Positions 8,626-20,856 of a stretch of 64,000 bases of DNA are shown piece after piece. Every line of letters starts with the position of its first letter. Position 1 is the stretch's first letter. The notes beneath the pieces were generated by a model, which had not been told where the DNA came from, searched no databases, and was given only the letters and a program-made list of their open reading frames with translations. Source of the DNA: a candidate division KSB1 bacterium (GTDB lineage Bacteria; Zhuqueibacterota; Zhuqueibacteria; Residuimicrobiales; Krinioviventaceae); contig JAXHMJ010000003.1 of NCBI GenBank assembly GCA_034521575.1, forward strand, positions 682,001 to 746,000, in the 5' to 3' direction. Both the position numbers and the translations under genes were made by a program.

Positions 8626-9576
8626 TTACTGCATGCCGGCTCAAAGTGCAAACTCTTTAGATGTTCCGAGTGGGGCATTTCAAGCCGGCTGCACATTATC
8701 CCGAGCTGGGCACTAAAGACCCCAAGTTTGGTTGTGCGTTTTCTGAAAGTGTTTAATTCCCATGCTTTTGGATTGCTTGATTGTATAACAGGTTCTGTTG
8801 GTTTAATAGTGTCAGCTTTTGCCTGGCAACATGGTTTCCGGTTTTCAAAATTAACAGATAAATCAAGTTATTGCCGGTTTGATCAAATATATCGTAACCG
8901 CTTCCCGTGTCAAAATTCCAATACCCTTTTAAATGGTAATATCAACAGTAAAAAAATCAAAACTTTCATAAAGCGCCTCCTTCTGTTGGTCAGTACAGGC
9001 AACAACCATACTATTTTGCTATAAATTGTATTAGTGGGGAGTTTTATGTTGTTTCATTATAAACCCGTTCAGGAGGGGGAGGTCTCCCCCTCGCTGCAGC
9101 CAGGCTGCCCGCCTCTTGACAATACTGCCTGGAGTTGATAGTCTGAGCGGGGCGGGCACCGCCTCGCTAAACCGGCCTCACCATCGCGGTACGATCGAAT
9201 TACGCAGCGGATGCTACAAGTTTCAATCCCCGCACCCCCGCGGGCCGGTTTACCGTCCGTCTGAGAAACGCCGGCCGGCCGCTCGGCTGCCTGTCTTCCG
9301 CTCCCCCCTCTGTTTTCACAACGTGCCGGATGGGATTGTAGTGCGTCAGAATCATACCCTTGTCGTACAATTTTCAATGGTGCGACAAATGAAAGGAGCA
9401 GAGTACAGTTTTTTTCCAATCGTTGCCGCTCTCAATCATCGTTTTACTCTACCCTGTTTCAGTGTGTCCACAATAGGGGTTATAAGGTTACTTGACCACT
9501 TTATACTTTTTTTCTTGCATGTATACAAAAAAATCAATATAATTAATAAATCAAACTCAAAAAAGCGGGGCAGTCT
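8626..9576. other. Gene-poor stretch upstream of the integron integrase
   Basis: No convincing gene is seen here. The left part (8630-9060) is ordinary to AT-rich. The middle (about 9065-9330) is sharply GC-rich and opens with a 9-bp perfect hairpin at 9073-9092 (GAGGGGGAG/CTCCCCCTC). A single CRISPR-repeat-like string starts at 9220 (GTTTCAATCCCCGCACC) but has no second copy. The right part (9440-9570) is AT-rich and should hold the integrase promoter. Open frames here have no family features or ribosome sites and were left out. Confidence 0.5.
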
Positions 9577-10560
9577 TTGGGGTTGAACACATCCACAGGG
9601 CAAAACCAACCGAAACTCCTGGATCAGGTGAGGGGTGTGTTGCGTGCGCGCCATTATAGTTTGCGGACGGAACGAACGTATGTAAACTGGATCGTAAAGT
9701 ATATCAAATATCATAACCTTCAACATCCAGGAAAATTGGGCGAATCAGAGATTAATCAGTATTTAACGCATCTTGCAGTACGGGAAAACGTGTCGTCATC
9801 AACTCAAAACCAGGCCCTGTGCGCAATAATATTTTTATATAAATATATTCTAAAACAGGATGTTGGAGAACTCGACATCACATGGGCCAAAAAGCCGAAA
9901 AGGCTGCCTGTGGTGTTTACTGGTGAAGAAGCAAAATCTGTCTTGAACCATCTGGAAGGCATGAACCGGATCATGGCCATGCTGCTCTATGGTAGCGGAC
10001 TGCGGCTTTCCGAATGCCTGCAAGTGCGGGTCAAGGATATCGATTTTGGGTTTAAACAAATCATTGTGAGAAGCGGCAAAGGTGACAAGGACCGGAAAAC
10101 GCTCTTGCCGGAAAAACTTGTCGATCCTTTGAAAAAGCAAATTGAATATGTGAAAATTCTACATCTCCGGGATTTAAAAAACGGTTATGATTCTGTCTAT
10201 TTGCCCTATGCCTTGGAACGAAAATATCCGCATGCCGGACGAGAACTGGGCTGGAAATTTGTCTTTCCGGCGCATAAGATATCAACTGATCCCGTCAGTG
10301 GTGTGCAGAGGCGTCATCATATTCACGAAAGTGTGCTGCAAAAAGCGGTGAAACGTGCCATAAGAAAAACCGGAATCCATAAAAAAGCCGGTTGTCATAC
10401 CTTTCGGCACTCGTTCGCCACACGGCTCCTTGAAAACGGATATGATATCCGAACCATACAGGAACTCATGGGGCACAAGAACCTGGAAACCACGATGATT
10501 TATACGCATGTGATCAACAAAGGCGGGTTGGGTGTCAAAAGTCCGGCGGATGATATATAA
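9577..10560 (+). CDS. intI: Integron integrase (IntI-type tyrosine recombinase)
   Basis: 327 residues with the full tyrosine recombinase set: R143 (GSGLRLSE), H274 and R277 ([13 protein letters not shown]), H300 (LMGHKN) and Y309 (MIYTHV). Between about residues 195 and 232 it carries the extra helical insert that sets IntI apart from XerC/D ([20 protein letters not shown], then [13 protein letters not shown]). IntI recombines attI with attC and inserts or excises gene cassettes. The start is uncertain: TTG 9577 or TTG 9583 fit the frame, with no ATG nearby. Cassettes and attC-like sites follow its 3' end on the same strand, the opposite of the usual divergent arrangement. Confidence 0.93.
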
Positions 10561-10565
10561 TCTGT

Positions 10566-10937
10566 ATGATGAACACAAAACGGAAAATCTATCCGGGACA
10601 ACCGGGCACACAAAAATGGATAAAGAAATACGGCGACGATCTGGTCTGTATCCGCTACAAGTATGATCCGGATACCCATCGTAAAATGATAACCGTTGAG
10701 TTGGTCGTTGAAGAAAAGGAATGGCACAAAAATTATGATCACATTCCGGAAAATAAAATGATGGCGATCCGGATTGAATACGGAGAACGCGAACTGGGTT
10801 TAAAAGTCAGATCTGTCGGCGGCACCTGGAATCGTAAAGAAAAACTCTGGTATTTACCCTGGAATGCGATTAAAGCGTTGTCCTTACAGGACCGGGTTGT
10901 CACTTTTTCTAATAATAGAAAATCTCGACCTCCCTGA
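10566..10937 (+). CDS. Uncharacterised basic protein immediately downstream of the integrase
   Basis: 123 residues starting 6 bp after the intI stop (ATG 10566 or 10569), so very likely cotranscribed. It is rich in Lys, Arg and Trp, with a compact pattern: KKYGDDLVCIRYKYDP, ITVELVVEEKEW, IRIEYGERELGLKVRSVG, then GTWNRKEKLWYLPWNAIKAL. I know of similar unnamed proteins beside recombinase genes but cannot name a family. The C-terminal codons SNNRKSRPP already lie inside the palindrome array that follows, so the original stop may have been replaced by array growth. It could be a nucleic-acid-binding partner of the integrase; that is inference. Confidence 0.7.
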   Translation: MMNTKRKIYPGQPGTQKWIKKYGDDLVCIRYKYDPDTHRKMITVELVVEEKEWHKNYDHIPENKMMAIRIEYGERELGLKVRSVGGTWNRKEKLWYLPWNAIKALSLQDRVVTFSNNRKSRPP

Positions 10938-11021
10938 TATTTTCTAATAATAGAAAACCAGTTTTTTCTAATAATAGAAAATGTTTTCTAATAGTAGAAA
11001 CATTTTTCTAATAATAGAAAT
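10905..11021. repeat. Array of five 18-bp palindromes between intI operon and first cassette
   Basis: The perfect palindrome TTTTCTAATAATAGAAAA occurs at 10905, 10940, 10964 and 11004 (flanking bases vary slightly), with a fifth, variant copy (TAGTAG centre) at 10984. Start-to-start spacings are about 35, 24, 20 and 20 bp. Each copy could bind a dimeric protein or fold into a hairpin. The array sits between the intI operon and the candidate attI, where cassette expression and insertion would be controlled. Confidence 0.85.
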
Positions 11022-11031
11022 AAATTAGGAG

Positions 11032-11062
11032 GTTTAACGGTCGGATAAACTATATGTTATGC
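11032..11062 (+). other. Candidate integron attI site
   Basis: GTTTAAC at 11032-11038 fits RYYYAAC, and GTTATGC at 11056-11062 is a core site like that of Vibrio repeats. They lie at the boundary between the integrase-proximal DNA and the first cassette, whose gene starts 15 bp later. No long palindrome joins them, as expected for attI rather than attC. Position and core match support the call; function is not shown. Confidence 0.45.
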
Positions 11063-11077
11063 CGCAAGGAGGAAATT

Positions 11078-11986
11078 ATGAAAAAGTATATTATTTCTCT
11101 TGTGTTGCTATTACCTATATACTGTTTTTCTCAATGGCTAGATCAAGGATCTTTACAAGCCACAGTATTACTGGAAAAATTAAAAGATTCTGAGCTTATT
11201 CCACATGGCACTGGATTCTTGCTCTACAATTATGATAATCCAAGAGACTATATCGTTGTAACTTGTGCACATTTAATAAAAAATCGTAATGAAATATTTG
11301 TTAGAATGAATATAGATAGTTCGATTACGCAAGCTTTTAAAGAAAAGGGAAAAATAGATGGGATATATACTGCTGAAAGAAATTGGGAGATTATTGAAAA
11401 TAACATTGTATTTAAAATTAATCTAAGTTCTAATCCTAAATCATATGTAATTAATGATTCACTTGATATAGGGGCTTTTTTTATCAATATACCAATATTA
11501 ATTGTAGAGGATGACACTTCAAAAAAGGCTTTGAAATTCTCACAAAAATTAGGTGTTCCCAAAAGTGGATTTAAATATAGAAAAGAATTATCCTTAGGTG
11601 ATGAAGTATATTTTATTGGCTTTCCTTTTGGTATAGGAGCTTCGAAAACAATTACACCTATTGTTCGTTCCGGTTCTATAGCATGGCTTCCTTCTGGATA
11701 TCCAGGATTTTTACTTGATTCATTTTCTTTTGGGGGCAATAGCGGTAGTCCTATTTTCTGCAAGGTATTGTTAGGTACAAAAATAGGAAAGTTAAATTGG
11801 GATGCACCAAAATTAATTGGCATGATTATAGGTCATCATGGTATAAAACTAGATAATGTACTCACTCAGCCGAATCCGGATGAATTGAAATTTGAAAAGG
11901 GAAGCTTAGAAATGAATTTTGGATTAGCAAGATGTGTCTTTATAGATGATATTTTAAAAGTAACTGAGCAATTGGTCACTAATTAG
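11078..11986 (+). CDS. Cassette 1: secreted trypsin-like serine protease
   Basis: 302 residues from ATG 11078, preceded by AAGGAGG. The signal peptide MKKYIISLVLLLPIYCFSQ directs export. The chymotrypsin-type fold shows HGTGFLLYN and VVTCAHL with catalytic His65, then FGGNSGSPIF with the expected nucleophile Ser222. The catalytic Asp is not certain, perhaps in the stretch around residues 125-155. Other marks are GDEVYFIGFPFG and IGMIIGHHG. It is AT-rich compared with the chromosomal core, typical of integron cassettes, and ends 4 bp before attC1. The substrate is unknown; a secreted protease may act on host envelope or competitor proteins. Confidence 0.8.
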   Translation: MKKYIISLVLLLPIYCFSQWLDQGSLQATVLLEKLKDSELIPHGTGFLLYNYDNPRDYIVVTCAHLIKNRNEIFVRMNIDSSITQAFKEKGKIDGIYTAERNWEIIENNIVFKINLSSNPKSYVINDSLDIGAFFINIPILIVEDDTSKKALKFSQKLGVPKSGFKYRKELSLGDEVYFIGFPFGIGASKTITPIVRSGSIAWLPSGYPGFLLDSFSFGGNSGSPIFCKVLLGTKIGKLNWDAPKLIGMIIGHHGIKLDNVLTQPNPDELKFEKGSLEMNFGLARCVFIDDILKVTEQLVTN

Positions 11987-11990
11987 GTGG

Positions 11991-12057
11991 GCATAACGAA
12001 TAAGCGTTGCATTCGACCTGAACGCAGTGAAGGTCGATATGGAACGCGGGGTTGGAC
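11991..12057 (+). other. attC1 (cassette recombination site)
   Basis: A 67-bp imperfect palindrome with R'' GCATAAC and R' GTTGGAC (fits GTTRRRY). The inner arms GCGTTGCATTCGACCT and AGGTCGATATGGAACGC pair around a short loop. Nearly identical to attC6 at 22841. Confidence 0.7.
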
Positions 12058-12295: not shown

Positions 12296-13365
12296 TTAAA
12301 GTTTTGAGATTGTAAGCCCAATATTTGGAGGTCCTCTTGTTTTCGGGATTTCCGCGACAAAAATCAGTGCATGTCCGCAGTCAGGGCATTTCATGATTTT
12401 ATCGTCTGTGATTAAATCATCAATATTTGTTTGTAAACGTTCACCGATCAGGTTCTTTGACATATGCCAATTCACCTCGTTTTTTGGTGGCCAATATTCC
12501 AAAATAGCGCACTTTTACAAAGCTTTTTGGAAGAATATGTTGTAAGAACAGATATATGAATTCATTGGCATCCAGTGACCGGGTTTTCACGGTATCTGTT
12601 TGAGCATCTTTATAGCGGAATGTTACCTTGCCATGTTGTAAGTTTATTATGTTTTTGTCAGAAATGGCTACACGCATGATGTATGGTGCCAAGTATTTAA
12701 GAGCTGATTGTCCGTTTCCAACTGGTTTGATATGACAAACCCATTTCTTTTTCCATGTATTGACTGGCAGATGAAGATTCAAATTTTTCTGAATGAGAGC
12801 ATCTTTGAATAATCTGCGAATCAATATTGACAAGGGTTTGACATGCACCAGAAAATCGGGTTTGGCCCATTTCCAGCGTTTGCCATCTTTGGTCAGTCCG
12901 CCAGCCGGTATAAGGAAATGAATATGCGGGTGATATCTCAGATCGCGCGTCCATGTATGCAAAACACCCATCATGCCGATATCGGCGCCGAGGTATTTTT
13001 TCTCTTTTGCCAGAATTAGCAGCGCCTGAGCGGCGGCTCGAAAGAGTAACGAGTAAAGCATTCTTTGATGTTGTTGAAAGGCGGTATGCAGTTCATTTGG
13101 TATTGTAATGGTCGCCAAAAAATAGGATGTCGGCAACAGAGTCTGATATTGTTTGGCAAGCCATTGATTTGCGCGGTCATTTTGACATTTTGGACAATGT
13201 CGATTTCTACATGAATGATAACTGTAATGTATTTTGCGGCATTCTTCACATTTTCCAAGTCTGTCCACCCAGTGCAGAAGTTCTACAGTCAACAATATTC
13301 TGCATGGTTTTATAATGACTTGGAAGAATACTTTGGTCTATATTTTGCAATTGTTTCATTTCCAT
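12296..13365 (-). pseudogene. IS91-family transposase, frame-broken
   Basis: Reconstructed from ATG 13365 (MEMKQLQNIDQSILPSHYKT) through the main frame 13295-12441 to the tail ending at 12296. Hallmarks are the zinc-finger segment CEECRKIHYSYHSCRNRHCPKC, the HPHIHFLIPAGGLT block of HUH/Y2 rolling-circle transposases, and a C-terminal CPDCGH. Two single-base breaks split it: an extra base in the tttt run at 13251-13254 and another at the gg at 12451-12452. Removing one base at each restores about 350 residues. It would replicate and move the element by rolling-circle transposition. The second copy keeps only short pieces of this gene. Confidence 0.85.
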
Positions 13366-13392
13366 ATTGGCGGATAATGTCCGCCATTGTGA

Positions 13393-14258
13393 TCACAGGC
13401 TGTTCATAACCTTATTGATCACATGAACTGGGTCAGGCAGATTCTGATTGATTAGTTGAGTATAGATCATGGTTGTTTTGGGATCTTCGTCGCCGAGTAT
13501 TTTTGCACAAACCTCAGATCAACGCCGGCTTCGAGTAAATGTGTGGCATACGAATGCCGGAGATGGTGAACAGAAACCTTTTTTGCAATTTTAACAGCAT
13601 CCTTGGCTTCTTTGAAAGCAATTTGTATACTTGTCAAAGGAATAGGTTTGTCAGTGGTTGGCATAGCGTTTCCACCACGGCCAGGTGCCGGGAATATCCA
13701 TTTTGGATTTCGATGTGTTTTGTAGAAAGTTCTCAACAATTCAAGAGTGCGTTGAGGTAATGGTATATATCTGTCCTTGTTTCCTTTGCCGCGATGAATA
13801 TGGACAAACATACGTTCAGAATCAATGTCGGATATTTGGAGATGGGTACCTTCTTGAAGCCGAAGACCGAGAGAATAGATCGTGAATAAACAGGCCTGAT
13901 GATGAGGAAACCGTACGTTCTTTAAAATTTTGTGAACTTGAGCCTGGCTTAATACAACAGGTAATGATTTTTGTTTTTCAGGACGCACAAACCTGATTGT
14001 TGTCCAATCGCGTTGCAGGGTATGGGTAAAAAAGAACTTGATACCGCATAATGCAATGGTACATGCGGTTCGCGACCATTTGCGTTTGTTTTTGTTGTAG
14101 AGGAAGTATTGGCGCAGTTCCTCTTCGGTGATTTGACCAGGTGGTTTTTGGTAATATGTTGAAAGTTGAGCAATAGAACGAATGTACATTTCAATTGTTC
14201 GTTCCGACATGCCTTTGAGTTGCATGTCTTCAGTCATACGTGTACGCCAGTCAGTCAT
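13393..14258 (-). pseudogene. IS91-associated tyrosine recombinase, frame-broken before the catalytic Tyr
   Basis: The start ATG 14258 (MTDWRTRMTEDMQLKG) has a strong AAGGAGG site. It shows an N-terminal SAM-like domain, then SLGLRLQEGTHL with the first catalytic Arg and HHLRHSYATHLLEAGVDL with the His-x-x-Arg pair. One missing base at about 13497 ends the frame early. Restoring it gives YLGDEDPKTTMIYTQLINQ, which contains the catalytic Tyr, and extends the gene to a stop at 13393. A XerD-like recombinase is a known companion of some IS91-family elements and may resolve intermediates. It lies about 30 bp upstream of the transposase start, in the same direction. Confidence 0.85.
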
Positions 14259-14355
14259 CGTGAACCTCCTTTTAAAATGAATAATTGATTTGTGAGGTTC
14301 ACGATGGCTGCAATTATCAGGCAAAAGTGCCCGCCCGCTTTTTTGGGCGGGCTTA

Positions 14356-15589: not shown

Positions 15590-15626
15590 AAAGTAAATGT
15601 GATTGAAACTACATGTTTGGGAGAGG

Positions 15627-15825
15627 ATGATGAAAGCAGATTTGCATGTGTTTAATATAGGACATGGTGCAGCATCGTTATTACAAGTCCAACAAGACAA
15701 CAATAAAACATATAATATCTTGATCGATGGAGGGCCAAATTCTGATCTCAAAACTTATCTTAAAGCTCGTATTGGAGAGAATACGCCCTTAGATCTTGTC
15801 ATATTAACACACATCCATACTGATC
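15627..15825 (+). pseudogene. Cassette 4: MBL-fold protein, 5' part (split by the IS21-family element)
   Basis: The start ATG 15627 follows GGGAGAGG. The reading MKADLHVFNIGHGAASLLQV, then ILIDGGPNSDLKTYL and LVILTHIHTD, is the beginning of a ComEC/Rec2-like metallo-beta-lactamase fold. It is cut inside the metal motif at 15825. The rest of the gene continues at 19454 after removal of the 3,622-bp element and one copy of the CTGATC duplication. The two parts then make 1,602 nt, a continuous 533-residue frame reading THIHTDHCKGLIPLF. Confidence 0.88.
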
Positions 15826-16018
15826 TATTACCAACGGTTAACAAGTTTACCAAAGCCAACGGAATAATACTTTACCACCTAAAGTGGAGCACATAGATTC
15901 TCTTACAAGACTCTGTAAAAAAAACAGTTCTTTGGCATAAAATATCAATTATATTTTTATATTTTTAAAATGAAACCAGATTACTATTTATTTTTCTGTC
16001 GATAAGATGGTCCTTCCA

Positions 16019-16723
16019 TCAGTATAATCTCCGAGTTTTAACGAGCCGGTCTGCGATGGCTTGAGCGATTACAGCACTTTGAAAGATCTCTCCCCAGCGG
16101 CCAAAGGGCAGATTGGTGGTCACGATTGTACTCACACGTTCATGCCTGGCACTGAGCACCTGGAAAAAAAGATTTGATGACTGTTCGTCAAGCGAAAGAA
16201 AACCCAACTCGTCACAAACAAGCAGACTTGGAGTTTGATAAAATTTTAGTTTTTTTAACAACGACTGATCAGCTTGAGCGGCAATGAGGTGATTAATCAT
16301 ATCAATAGCTGTTGTGAAGAGTACACGTTCATTTTTCAAACAGGCTTGATAAGCTATGGTTTTTGCTAATCGGGTTTTTCCGGTTCCGGGGGCGCCAATA
16401 AAGATCACGTCTTGTTTTTTATGAATAAAATCACATTCGGACAAACGCAAAACAAGGGATCGGTTCTGTTGTCGGGAGACATGGAATTTAAAATCAAAGT
16501 CACTTGGCAAGCATTTATCAATCAAATGCGACGCTTTGATTCTGTTTTCAACAGAGCGTTTCCAGCGTGATTCGTTTTCCAGGTCAAGCAAATAATCGAG
16601 CAGCCACAGAAAGCCGTTGTTCTGCTCTTTTTCTTTTTCAAAGGCATCTTCGAGATATTCGGCCATGGTATTGAGTCGCAACTGCTGCAATTTGTGGATT
16701 GTATTTTCAATTTTTGTCATCAT
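16019..16723 (-). CDS. istB: IS21-family helper ATPase IstB
   Basis: 234 residues, normal for IstB. Walker A is FIGAPGTGKTRLAKTIA (about residues 106-122) and Walker B is SLLVCDELGFLS (about 168-179). The N-terminal helical part LQQLRLNTMAEYLEDAF is the IstB signature start. This AAA+ DnaC-like protein selects and primes target DNA for IstA. Its start overlaps the istA 3' end by 17 bp, the usual coupled arrangement. Intact. Confidence 0.93.
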   Translation of the reverse strand: MMTKIENTIHKLQQLRLNTMAEYLEDAFEKEKEQNNGFLWLLDYLLDLENESRWKRSVENRIKASHLIDKCLPSDFDFKFHVSRQQNRSLVLRLSECDFIHKKQDVIFIGAPGTGKTRLAKTIAYQACLKNERVLFTTAIDMINHLIAAQADQSLLKKLKFYQTPSLLVCDELGFLSLDEQSSNLFFQVLSARHERVSTIVTTNLPFGRWGEIFQSAVIAQAIADRLVKTRRLY

Positions 16724-18199
16724 TGTTCCTGCTTTTTTTCAAAGTAATGGCATCATAGATTAACAGATCGGGTTCCTGTAATTGTAACTGATTGAGCGTT
16801 TCATCTTTGAGGGTAACTTTGGGGTAATATGTTTTAATATGCATTTTTTGATGCAGGATATTCTCAACATAATCGACGCCATAGGCTTTGTATTTGAGGG
16901 TTATTTCAACGGCCTCCACAACTGCTTTGGCTCCATATTGTTCTCTTAATTCCAGGAGATGACTGGATGCCCGGGAAAGGCTTTTCCCGGCCTTGGCCAA
17001 ATTTTCGATGAATAGTTTGATGGGTTCACCCATTGAAAACAAGAGTTGTTCTTGTCTGGTTAACCTTGCCTTTTTACGTGTTTTCAAAAGTTCTGAAATA
17101 TGGTTCGGATTTTCAATAACAGCCCGGCGTTTCCAGCTTCGCGTGTGTACAGCAACAATTTTGTTTTTATGGCCTGCCCAAATTGTATGGTTATCCGCTT
17201 TGACACTGACTGTTTTACCGGCCATCCACCAAGGCGCTGAATAATAATTTGCATCAAATTTAAACCGGCAATCGGAATGGACTTTAGCTTCTGAATGATC
17301 TCTGGTATCCGGCAATACATCCGGCAATGGACGCAGGGCTTTCGGCTGAAAACGTTCAACCGGTTTTTCATTCGTTGTTGCGTGAATACGTGTATTTGCA
17401 ATGTGATCGCGCCATTTGCAGGCTTGCACATTTACATCATCCAGATCGGCAAAGGTGCGGCACGGCCAAAAGTTATAGCGAACGTAATGAACACCGCCTT
17501 TTTCTATCTTGCCTTTTGCGGATGCGTCCCTTATGCCGCACGCGTAAGGTCTGATATGAAAAGGGCGCAAGAAATGCAAATAATCTTCGTTGAACCGGAT
17601 AATATCGCCGATTCGTTCAATGACCGCTGTTTTCAAATTATCGTGCACCAGTTCTTTGGGAGCGCCACCAAAGAATAAAAAGAATTCAACAGGGTGCGCA
17701 TCACAGCTTCTTTGTTTTGACTATGTGTGAACTCGATGTAGAGCATTCTGGAATGGCATTCTATCACCGTCATGCAGTACAGTTTTCTGGAGGTGTTGCC
17801 ATAAATGAGACTGCCGAAATGCCCCCAATCAAACTGACATTGTTCACCAGGGCTGCTTTCAAACCGAATGTAGGCTTTGGATCGTTTCTTACCTCCTCGT
17901 TTAGCAAGGAGGTAATCGCGCAAAATCGTAATCCCTCCGGTATAGCCTTTTTCGTCGATACGTTGTTTAATAACAACAGCGCTGGCGTTCGGCCAACCTT
18001 CCAGCAGTTCATCAATATAATTATAGAACGGTTCCAATTTACCTGGCTTTGGACGTCTGGGAGGTGTGGCAATATCCGGGGAGTTGAGATATTTTTGCAC
18101 AGTTGGTCTTGAAATACATAACTTTCTGGCAATTTGGCGTTGTTTCATGCCCATATCAGCCAATTTGTGAATTTCAAAGATGATTCGTTTATTCATCAT
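16707..18199 (-). pseudogene. istA: IS21-family transposase IstA, one-base frameshift
   Basis: The N-terminal part MMNKRIIFEIHKLADMGM, with HTH QRQIARKLCISRPTVQKYL, runs into the DDE domain (CQFDWGHFG, MTVIECHSRMLY), then the frame breaks at the a-run 17677-17681. Adding one base there gives FFGGAPKELVHDNLK and continues into the lower frame, which holds the C-terminal DDE Glu region (SAKGKIEKGGVHYVRYNFWP) and ends at 16707. The restored length is about 497 residues, normal for IstA. A consensus error is plausible because istB and the element ends are intact. Confidence 0.88.
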
Positions 18200-18234
18200 G
18201 ACTTTTGGCCCTTTCAAGAGATTCAGTTACAAGT

Positions 18235-18621
18235 TTACGGATCGTCACTGGGGTCCCAGTTTTCAAAATCGGAGCGGGTAGTCAAGGGTTTTGAAGGCAG
18301 TGCAACCGGCTTTTTCGGCAAAGAAAGCACCTGAAACATAAACCCGTCAAAGGCAATCAGGGATTTTTTGATCAAAGCGTTTCTGGCAGTGATAAAATCA
18401 TCAAGACTTATCCTCAGCATCGTGCAGAGCCGGTCCTGACTGTAATAAGACAGCCCGTGCCGATCTCCGACAAGCACGAGCAAAAAGTAAATCAAAAGCT
18501 CGTGTTGATTCAAACTGGTAAAAAAATGGTCTGTGATAAACCGGTGTGGAATAAAACTAAATCCCCCATCAATGTTACGCACCCGGTCGGGAATAAGGGG
18601 TTTTTTGGTGATTTTCATCAT
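18235..18621 (-). CDS. IS21 passenger 1: HTH protein (replication-initiator-like winged helix)
   Basis: 128 residues from ATG 18621 behind GGGAGG. The core FIPHRFITDHFFTSLNQHELLIYFLLVLVGDRHGLSYYSQDRLCTMLRISLDDFITARNALIKKSLIAF reads as a winged-helix domain like the N-terminal part of plasmid or phage replication regulators. It ends 36 bp before the istA start on the same strand. Genes like this are known next to some environmental IS21 elements; a regulatory role for istAB is inferred. Confidence 0.7.
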   Translation of the reverse strand: MMKITKKPLIPDRVRNIDGGFSFIPHRFITDHFFTSLNQHELLIYFLLVLVGDRHGLSYYSQDRLCTMLRISLDDFITARNALIKKSLIAFDGFMFQVLSLPKKPVALPSKPLTTRSDFENWDPSDDP

Positions 18622-18692
18622 TCTGCCTCCCGAATAATAGATCACGTACAAATTCAACTGAAATCTACTATACCACAAGGCAAATAGCAATA

Positions 18693-18877
18693 GCGTCCAT
18701 TTTTACAATTAAATTCTTAAAGACAAAAAAAGGTCAATATTTTTATGTAAATCAGCCAGTTGCACGATTAACGCGTCCATTTTTACAATTTTCCCGGATG
18801 AATCAATTTTATAAGGATTCATTACACAAGTGTATAATTTTTCTGACTGCTTTTTTAACGCGTCCATTTTTACAATT
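18693..18877. repeat. Three direct copies of an 18-bp repeat inside the IS21-family element
   Basis: GCGTCCATTTTTACAATT occurs at 18693-18710, 18773-18790 and 18860-18877, spaced 80 and 87 bp. Two copies lie inside the coding region of the zinc-finger passenger gene and give the repeated peptide KIVKMDAL. The third covers its stop. All are the same orientation, suggesting a protein-binding array, perhaps for IstA or the HTH passenger. Confidence 0.85.
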
Positions 18878-19191
18878 TTAATCAGCTCCGCTTTTTTTGA
18901 CTGGTTCGCATTGCGTTTTTTCTGAAGGTCTCGGTTTCTTTTCACATAGTCTGGATGCTTTTTACGATACTCTTTTTGATATTTATCTAATGGATAGGTC
19001 TTGCGCCATTTCTTTAAACATGCGACTTGCTGTTCGTGATACTGAGAATCCTGAATCATTTTTTGTTTTTGCCAGGCACGTTTGCGGGCTCTTTGGCAGT
19101 TGGGGGCACTGCAGTATAACTGATTGCCTTTGAGCCGGGGATTAGCAGGTTTTTGCTTACAGCAATTCTTGCAAATAATGGTTTTCTTCAT
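18709..19191 (-). CDS. IS21 passenger 2: Cys-rich, highly basic DNA-binding-like protein
   Basis: 160 residues from ATG 19191 (MKKTIICKNCCKQKP). An N-terminal zinc-binding knuckle (CKNCC, then LYCSAPNCQRARKRAWQKQK) is followed by a long Lys/Arg-rich helical middle (KEYRKKHPDYVKRNRDLQKKR). The C-terminal part contains two copies of KIVKMDAL, encoded by the 18-bp repeats. Similar Cys-start, basic proteins accompany some environmental IS21 elements. It may bind the element's own repeats; no function is established. Confidence 0.65.
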   Translation of the reverse strand: MKKTIICKNCCKQKPANPRLKGNQLYCSAPNCQRARKRAWQKQKMIQDSQYHEQQVACLKKWRKTYPLDKYQKEYRKKHPDYVKRNRDLQKKRNANQSKKAELIKIVKMDALKKQSEKLYTCVMNPYKIDSSGKIVKMDALIVQLADLHKNIDLFLSLRI

Positions 19192-19453
19192 CACAGACAC
19201 TCGTATTGGTGGAAGGATAGTTAGGGCTGAGAACCAACATACAGCCAAAAACAAGCCCAATAATCTAAAGTGCCATAAAAATTAATTTGTGAAAAGGGGG
19301 AAAAAGAGAATAAAACGAATGATATGAAAATAAGAGAAAATTAGATGGAATTTTTATGAATATTTATGAAAATGAATTAAATGAAAGAAAATGTATGGTA
19401 AAGTTTTAGACCGGTGAAAATGGTAAAGAATTAAAGTGGTGGTAATACTGATC

Positions 19454-20856
19454 ATTGTAAAGGGTTAATCCCACTGTTTCAAGAGTGGAAAGGAGAAATT
19501 CGTCAGTTATGGATTCCCTACCCAATTCGTGTGCTCCAAGAGATTGCAAGCGCACTTGCAGGTACGGGGGAAGATATTAGTGAATTTGATAATAATCAAA
19601 ATGATGAGGGAGAAAATGATCATAAAGAGTGGTCAAAGGGGGTAAGGGAAGCATTTGATGAGGCAAAAAATCGTCTGAGCGATTGTATCCAACAAGAAGG
19701 AGATGAAGAAATTCAAAGTCCCAATCAAAATACAGAAAACTTAGATCACTTCATTAAAGAGTTTGAAAGGTGGATTGAAAACTCAAACGATTTCAATTTA
19801 AAAGAAGTTTTCCCAGATTTAGAAAATTTTATTCCATATTTGGAAGAAATTTGGGACTATGAATTCCCCAAGTTGATTTACTATCTTGAAAAGCATGAAC
19901 ATCCTAAATTTGAGAGAAGAATTTTTGAAAGATTACATTATTATTATCATAAGTATCCTAGAAGGTTCTTCTTACCTTTATTACTTCTACTCATGAAATC
20001 AAAATCACACTTTCCTTATGGAAATATTAACGCTCAGAAGCTCAAAAACACTTACTATCAATATGGCAAAAACAAAAATGATGCTAATACTCGAAAATTT
20101 GTTTTCGGAAAAAGTATGGCAAGTTATAATACTCTAAACAACATTTTGCGAATTGCTAGAACAAGATCCACCCCAGTTCCAATAGTACAGGCTACTTCCG
20201 ATCTATTATTAAACACTCCTTTATCATCCGTCCCTCAATTAAAAATATTGTCACCCTCATATCCCTTGATTTGTGAAATAGAATCACATTTAAAACAACA
20301 AAAAGGGAAAGATTTCTATGAAAGTTTGTATATGGTCTGTGCATTAGAAGCTGCAAATGTAGTAGGCGTTGCAACAAATATTTATGTCGATGATACTACA
20401 ATTCTTTTTCCGGGTGATAGTGATTTGCAGGGCGTAGATTTAGAGGATTTTAAATCTGATTTATTGTTTTGCCCACATCATGGAGGTCATGCAGGTTCTT
20501 TTGTTCAAAAGTATGCAGAGACAATACAACCTAACAAAGCTAGCAACCGAAAAATTGTTGTCATTTCAAAAGGGACAAAGGAACAAGGCAAACGCCCAAG
20601 TGATGAGTGGATTGATGTTTTTCAAAGACATCATGAAAATCTTGAAGTCTATTGTACAAATGCATCAGAAAATGTGCCAACTTGTAAAGATTGCCAGCCC
20701 CAAAAATGGCAAAATAATAGTGCTCTTCATTTTTCTTGCGAAAACAAACAATGGACGTTAGTAAATGAAAATACTGACAATAAAAATCAGCGTTGTAAAT
20801 TCTTAGAGATCATGAATCGCAACAAGAAAGAAAGCAAGAACGATGAAATTGGCTAA
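19454..20856 (+). pseudogene. Cassette 4: MBL-fold protein, 3' part
   Basis: Continues the frame from 15825, reading (THIHTD)HCKGLIPLFQEWKGEIRQLWIPYPIRVLQEIASAL. It then has a long acidic, helical insert of about 250 residues, and the second half of the MBL fold (ILFPGDSDLQGVDLEDF, LLFCPHHGGHAGSF), ending in a Cys-containing tail. The complete protein would be 533 residues with all main metal ligands of the HxHxDH type. Relatives are ComEC-like hydrolases without membrane segments; the substrate is unknown. The stop overlaps R'' of attC4. Confidence 0.85.

Follow-up and report, generated by a model that had tools for sequence, protein, structure and literature searches.

We describe an integron head in which a small gene, here called the companion, accompanies the integrase gene intI, and an array of short palindromes leads up to the insertion site attI. 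Our computational comparisons establish that the intI/companion/array module is conserved, that the array keeps a characteristic geometry, that it is linked to the companion and that one companion residue (residue 6) co-varies with one palindrome base (base 3). In many environmental bacteria the companion and array sequences co-vary, which suggests that a complex not described before assists gene capture or its control. There is perhaps an even chance that the broadest reading is correct, namely that a large class of integrons, not described before, supplies a recombination accessory factor of its own in the form of a DNA-binding protein of ~115 aa that would control cassette capture through a phased array fused to attI and a one-residue/one-base switch, and that orphan arrays may be platforms for insertion in trans.

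In the window, which is the whole 64,000-nucleotide stretch of DNA that was analysed, intI occupies positions 9577-10560 of the + strand and encodes an integron integrase, a tyrosine recombinase that matches TIGR02249 (E=1e-133, 445.6 bits vs a cut-off of 265) and PF00589 (2.5e-37). A leader lies before intI and runs into its start (9490-9589, + strand). The companion ORF (10566-10937, + strand) encodes 123 aa of a conserved family with no Pfam or NCBIfam family over cut-off, and the co-variation described below leads us to propose it as the array-binding protein. The attI simple site, GATAAACTATATGTTATGC, was read from the sequence at 11044-11062 (+ strand), with the crossover G^TT at 11056; around the crossover it reads GATAAACTATATG^TTATGC, and the core, GTTATGC, is off GTTRRRY at one position. 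The first cassette (11057-12051, + strand) has the same orientation as intI, and its ORF (11078-11986) encodes a trypsin-like peptidase (PF13365, 4.7e-08). The cassette begins with TTATGC, complementary to the R'' box of the attC that follows; this attC was also read from the sequence (11991-12057, + strand; R'' GCATAAC ... R' GTTGGAC, inner stem GCGTTGCATTCGACC/GGTCGATATGGAACGC). The stem is present on the attC bottom strand at -12.8 kcal/mol (z -1.98), and 9 of 200 shuffles fold as well. By its intI subfamily match, its attI and its first cassette, the window system is a chromosomal integron.

Two regions downstream were annotated by eye. Directly behind the first cassette, at 12296-14324, the translations indicate two neighboring minus-strand ORFs, one transposase-like (12441-13295) and the other tyrosine-recombinase-like (13467-14324). 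At 15603-20856 a metallo-beta-lactamase-like ORF (15603-15896) is apparently split by an IS21-like istB/istA pair (16019-18217), and the ORF at 19531-20856 may be its remainder.

The array consists of five copies of TTTTCTAATAATAGAAAA, three exact, one with 1 mismatch and one with 2 mismatches, at 10905-10922, 10940-10957, 10964-10981, 10984-11001 and 11004-11021 (sites 1 to 5, no strand assigned). With up to 3 mismatches allowed, the window has 12 matches to TTTTCTAATAATAGAAAA vs 0.12 expected, a number reached by no shuffle, and TRF scores the array region as a repeat. An earlier note on this DNA had placed five palindromes at the integron head, between the intI operon and attI and entering the last codons of the companion gene. 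The counts and coordinates bear this out, including the overlap of site 1 with the companion 3' codons. The same note called the array evenly spaced, which is wrong, as the start-to-start distances are 35, 24, 20 and 20 bp, with 17, 6, 2 and 2 bp separating consecutive palindromes; from the start of site 5 to the crossover G of attI is 52 bp. It was right that the palindromes resemble neither a CRISPR repeat nor attC. A CRISPR array requires spacers that are unique and regular in length as well as cas genes, whereas here the gaps are only 2, 2, 6 and 17 bp and the adjoining ORFs are intI, the companion and the cassette. The R''/L''...L'/R' boxes with GTTRRRY ends, by which an attC is known, are absent from the palindromes.

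As a refutation the earlier note named the same palindrome scattered genome-wide with no link to integrons. This is not the case; all matches to TTTTCTAATAATAGAAAA with 0-1 mismatches fall into four clusters, the window array and three arrays on contig C5. The contig C5 arrays have no intI or companion nearby, and the window companion is the sole companion-family match in the genome. Two of the three (L008 and L009) are followed by an attI-like GATAAAnTATATGTT, which repeats the window site, and their coordinates put the crossover 51-52 bp from the start of the last site, as in the window. The intI leader sequence recurs upstream of the three, and so it precedes all four arrays of the genome. 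The intI-less arrays look like integron heads minus intI and companion, or like platforms served in trans, and they may be relics. Further full or partial copies of the leader occur without palindrome arrays in this genome (G000) at C5:16889, 26275 and 36702 and at C1:271425 and 281924. A second full-length integron integrase (L014, C1:497519-498430; 43% identical) has no array within the 3.9 kb examined.

The earlier note had proposed a search for the palindromes beside intI in related genomes. The module does recur, in Calditrichota, KSB1, Geobacterales, Acidobacteriota, Chloroflexota and some Proteobacteria, and each locus has its own palindrome built around a common TMTAnnnnTAKA core, for example, GCATCTAATATTAGATGC at Geobacter loci, GTTTCTAAATATGGAAAC at L076, CCATCTACTTATAGATGG at L091 and ATTTATAATACTATAAAT at Geotalea L061. 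The companion family was compiled from 169 candidate loci, of which the best 80 were kept, and 56 members were aligned. Among the genomes searched, the gene is present in 97 of 277 from the class around Geomonas, in 12 of 396 in the phylum around L084 and in 15 of 400 in the phylum around L110; a search of plasmid and phage collections gave no companion match. A simple palindrome count gave 56 sites vs 4.3 in shuffles, which is low because many sites are imperfect, and so a motif model was used instead. It found 236 sites with the TMTAnnnnTAKA core in 77 companion loci vs 8 in reversed controls, a count made on the same loci on which the model was trained. Later loci therefore served as an independent check.

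The number of palindromes per array is four to seven, and their start-to-start spacing falls into a few classes: 20 bp (66 times), 24-26 bp (36 times), 33-36 bp (17 times) and 43-46 bp (30 times) in the first loci, and 20 bp (67 times), 24-26 bp (30 times), 34-35 bp (6 times) and 43-45 bp (15 times) in the later ones. The order is kept as well, (35 or 45)-25-20-20 bp, with 35-24-20-20 in the Calditrichota window, 34-24-21-20 in Acidobacteria L084, 34-26-20-20 in L091 and 44-25-20-20 in Geomonas L106. The attI crossover lies 41-42 bp beyond the start of the last site in 20 loci and 49-53 bp beyond it in six, and 26 of 33 later loci have 41-42 bp. The variable gaps (35 vs 45 bp, 41-42 vs ~51 bp) thus differ by one helical turn, and steps of ~10 bp indicate a protein complex on double-stranded DNA.

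The array follows the companion. Among intI loci of the window's class, the array chain score is 19.7-80.6 where a companion is present and the sequence is long enough, vs 6.0-20.3 where it is absent (Mann-Whitney p=2e-5); motif-free palindrome counts separate the two groups more weakly (p=0.0006). Arrays occur with the companion gene and not with companion-less intI genes, and some loci have companion and array with no intI found nearby. The array is nevertheless not part of the companion gene, as the order at KSB1 loci is companion-intI-array-attI. Since the companion is upstream of intI there and the array is behind intI, the array stays with attI.

The same conclusion comes from sequence variation. 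In 28 loci with both proteins, a partial Mantel test that controls for IntI relates the site to the companion (r=0.373, p=0.0002), whereas one that controls for the companion shows no relation of the site to IntI (r=-0.021, p=0.63). When alignment columns were compared over one set of loci for both proteins, the best companion column (z 9.3) exceeded the best IntI column (z 6.3). Companion residue 6 lies in the first predicted strand and is Arg in the window. Leu at this residue goes with A at palindrome position 3 in 31 of 31 loci, and another residue goes with T or G in 34 of 36, so that 65 of 67 loci agree; residue 6 is predicted to be the specificity position. It is Leu in Geomonas silvestris Red330 (L106) and Val in Geotalea sp. 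SG265 (L061/L161). A Pagel test supports dependent evolution of residue 6 and base 3 (LR 39.9, p=4.5e-8), with the switches on poorly supported branches of a tree from a short protein and only one of eight independent pairs on supported branches. Out of sample, among loci less than 95% identical to the earlier ones and with sites detected by a score that ignores position 3, the rule holds in 22 of 23. Three Chloroflexota loci break it, L045 and L046 (Ala) and L217 (Val), all with A. In a divergent group of paralogues, represented by Geomonas L105 and Geotalea L171, residue 6 is followed by His and the core is a different one, ACCTnnnnAGGT; by eye, L105 has a 26-20-20 layout and then 42 bp to attI.

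Companions are ~115 aa long. In relatives the protein ends right after a conserved ...RIV, just before site 1, and so the reading frame in the window appears to be extended through site 1. Apart from a weak DUF5710 match in 26 of the 56 members (best 3.4e-6), searches of Pfam, NCBIfam and PDB sequences gave no match. The protein has a predicted b-a-b-b N-terminal part and a DUF5710-like C-terminal part, and AlphaFold2 (pLDDT 86.5, pTM 0.50) predicts two small domains whose mutual placement is uncertain. A Foldseek search of the PDB gave no significant fold match. Neither the companion nor the array is described in the open papers searched.

We propose that the palindromes are double-stranded DNA binding sites for the small companion encoded with intI. 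That the companion binds the array is very probable, given the co-variation. Several companions, presumably dimers, would occupy the array, with its spacing of 35/45-25-20-20 bp, and assemble there into a phased nucleoprotein complex whose last site would be separated from the crossover of attI by four or five turns of the helix. This complex probably works as an accessory factor that the integron itself encodes and that would shape or license recombination by IntI at attI, i.e., cassette insertion, comparable to the accessory sequences and proteins of Xer at cer or to Xis/IHF at phage att sites. We lean towards this recombination role as the preferred reading for three reasons: the spacing is fixed relative to the crossover, a change of gene order leaves the array beside attI, and the corresponding flank of attI1 holds accessory sites for IntI. 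The suggestion in the earlier note that the palindromes may bind a regulator or an IntI accessory protein thus gains support from the co-variation and from the fixed helical geometry to attI. Against the proposal count the three arrays of this genome that have no intI or companion nearby, the Chloroflexota exceptions to the residue-6 rule, the poor branch support for the residue-6 switches and the absence of a significant fold match.

In the main alternative, the companion would regulate transcription with the array as its operator, so that cassette expression, and perhaps readthrough from intI, rather than recombination is controlled. Repressors typically have palindromic operators in arrays, the array precedes the first cassette in the direction of transcription and its co-variation with the companion would be expected of an operator, too; the fixed distance to attI could also be a fixed distance to an unseen cassette promoter. 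However, the helically stepped distance runs to the crossover while cassette starts vary, the array keeps its place beside attI even where the companion gene is found upstream of intI, and the window array has no sigma-70-like promoter, although the phylum may use other promoters. On balance we regard the operator as unlikely, but worth taking seriously. The palindromes might instead be extra IntI sites in the position of attI1 DR1/DR2, left of the simple site (PMC8946536), and the companion would then have another role. This is very improbable; the TMTAnnnnTAKA core is unlike GTTRRRY/RYYYAAC, no IntI correlation is left once the companion is controlled for, intI loci without a companion have no array and companion plus array also occur where no intI was found nearby.

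The earlier note further offered hairpins that insulate cassette transcription, and RNA or single-strand hairpins could in principle serve as transcript insulators or terminators, or as attC-like structures. The + strand RNA of the window array does fold better than shuffles (z -3.45), but palindromes fold anyway, and so this proves nothing. Mismatches within the palindromes are G-T in 68 cases and A-C in 72, with no strand or G·U bias; selection on an RNA or + strand hairpin would favor G-T and would not tolerate A-C, which argues against RNA hairpins. Moreover, a terminator scan found no terminator-like site, there is no Rfam match and the spacing shifts by whole turns of the DNA helix, so that the hairpin proposal is not supported and appears highly unlikely. 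It is hardly more credible that the palindromes are transposon ends or a small mobile repeat that landed beside attI by chance. L040 and L042 do have an inverted TGTC...GACA arrangement (L040-like copies read TGTC..GGAAAA / TTTTCC..GACA, inverted around the middle), and there are four copies in the window's genome. Yet position and geometry beside attI are constant in several phyla while the sequences differ, and two of the three other arrays in the genome also have attI at 51-52 bp. A neutral tandem-repeat expansion would account for the TRF call, but not for a sequence that varies between phyla while spacing and order are kept, nor for co-variation with a single protein residue, and we give it next to no credence.

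The companion and its array, read as an accessory system, resemble several known systems in part. The Xer sites cer and psi have accessory sequences bound by ArgR and PepA. These share with the present system a tyrosine recombinase core, a one-sided accessory array and, as proposed here, a sequence-specific accessory protein; they differ in that here the gene of this protein accompanies that of the recombinase, and Pfam gives no match to it. Excisionase/Cox systems likewise have a small protein gene beside a tyrosine recombinase and multiple phased sites by the crossover of phage att, although the companion has no Pfam, NCBIfam or PDB match to an excisionase family or any other known accessory factor. 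Helical phasing and co-variation with the companion are present beside the crossover, where an accessory factor would bind sequence-specifically. NrdR, which combines a zinc ribbon with an ATP-cone, recognizes NrdR boxes that the core CTAnnnnTAG resembles, and Foldseek listed an NrdR chain as one of its weak matches (prob 0.84, E 1.6, not significant). However, position 4 is T and not A, the spacing differs and the companion, with a single invariant Cys in the 56 aligned members, lacks zinc-ribbon cysteines and has no Pfam match to either NrdR domain, and so it does not fit an NrdR regulator.

A further parallel is attI1, whose DR sites are bound by IntI1 in the flank left of the simple site (PMC8946536) and whose accessory sequences favor attI x attC (PMC8946536, PMC8191803). 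Here, too, repeats that would be bound by a protein, the companion, stand directly left of the simple site. The attI1 repeats are two direct repeats that resemble core sites and bind IntI, whereas these arrays have four to seven helically stepped palindromes of other sequence, which varies together with a separate protein rather than with IntI, so they do not appear to be of the DR1/DR2 type. Integron recombination has been described as dependent on IntI and host factors. For attI x attC, V. cholerae IntIA is believed to require a further, unidentified factor, and the factor by which chromosomal integrons such as that of V. cholerae insert cassettes at attI is said to be missing (PMC8946536, PMC8191803). 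The companion and array offer a candidate, encoded by the integron, along with its DNA target. The specificity code can be tested by a one-residue swap in cultured strains. The results also suggest that the attI of such integrons extends over ~150-190 bp instead of being confined to a core of ~20 bp, and therefore a cloned core alone might not work.

Some occurrences of the companion family have a pattern of their own. Proteins in Chloroflexota genomes (L220-L228) match only the N-terminal ~60 residues (LKLKPGQRGT...), with several copies in one genome, and this part may be an independent DNA-binding domain that is used elsewhere. Geotalea sp. SG265 has five companion-family copies in one genome (L161, L167, L170, L171 and L172); L161 and L171 each adjoin an array, and their palindrome cores differ.
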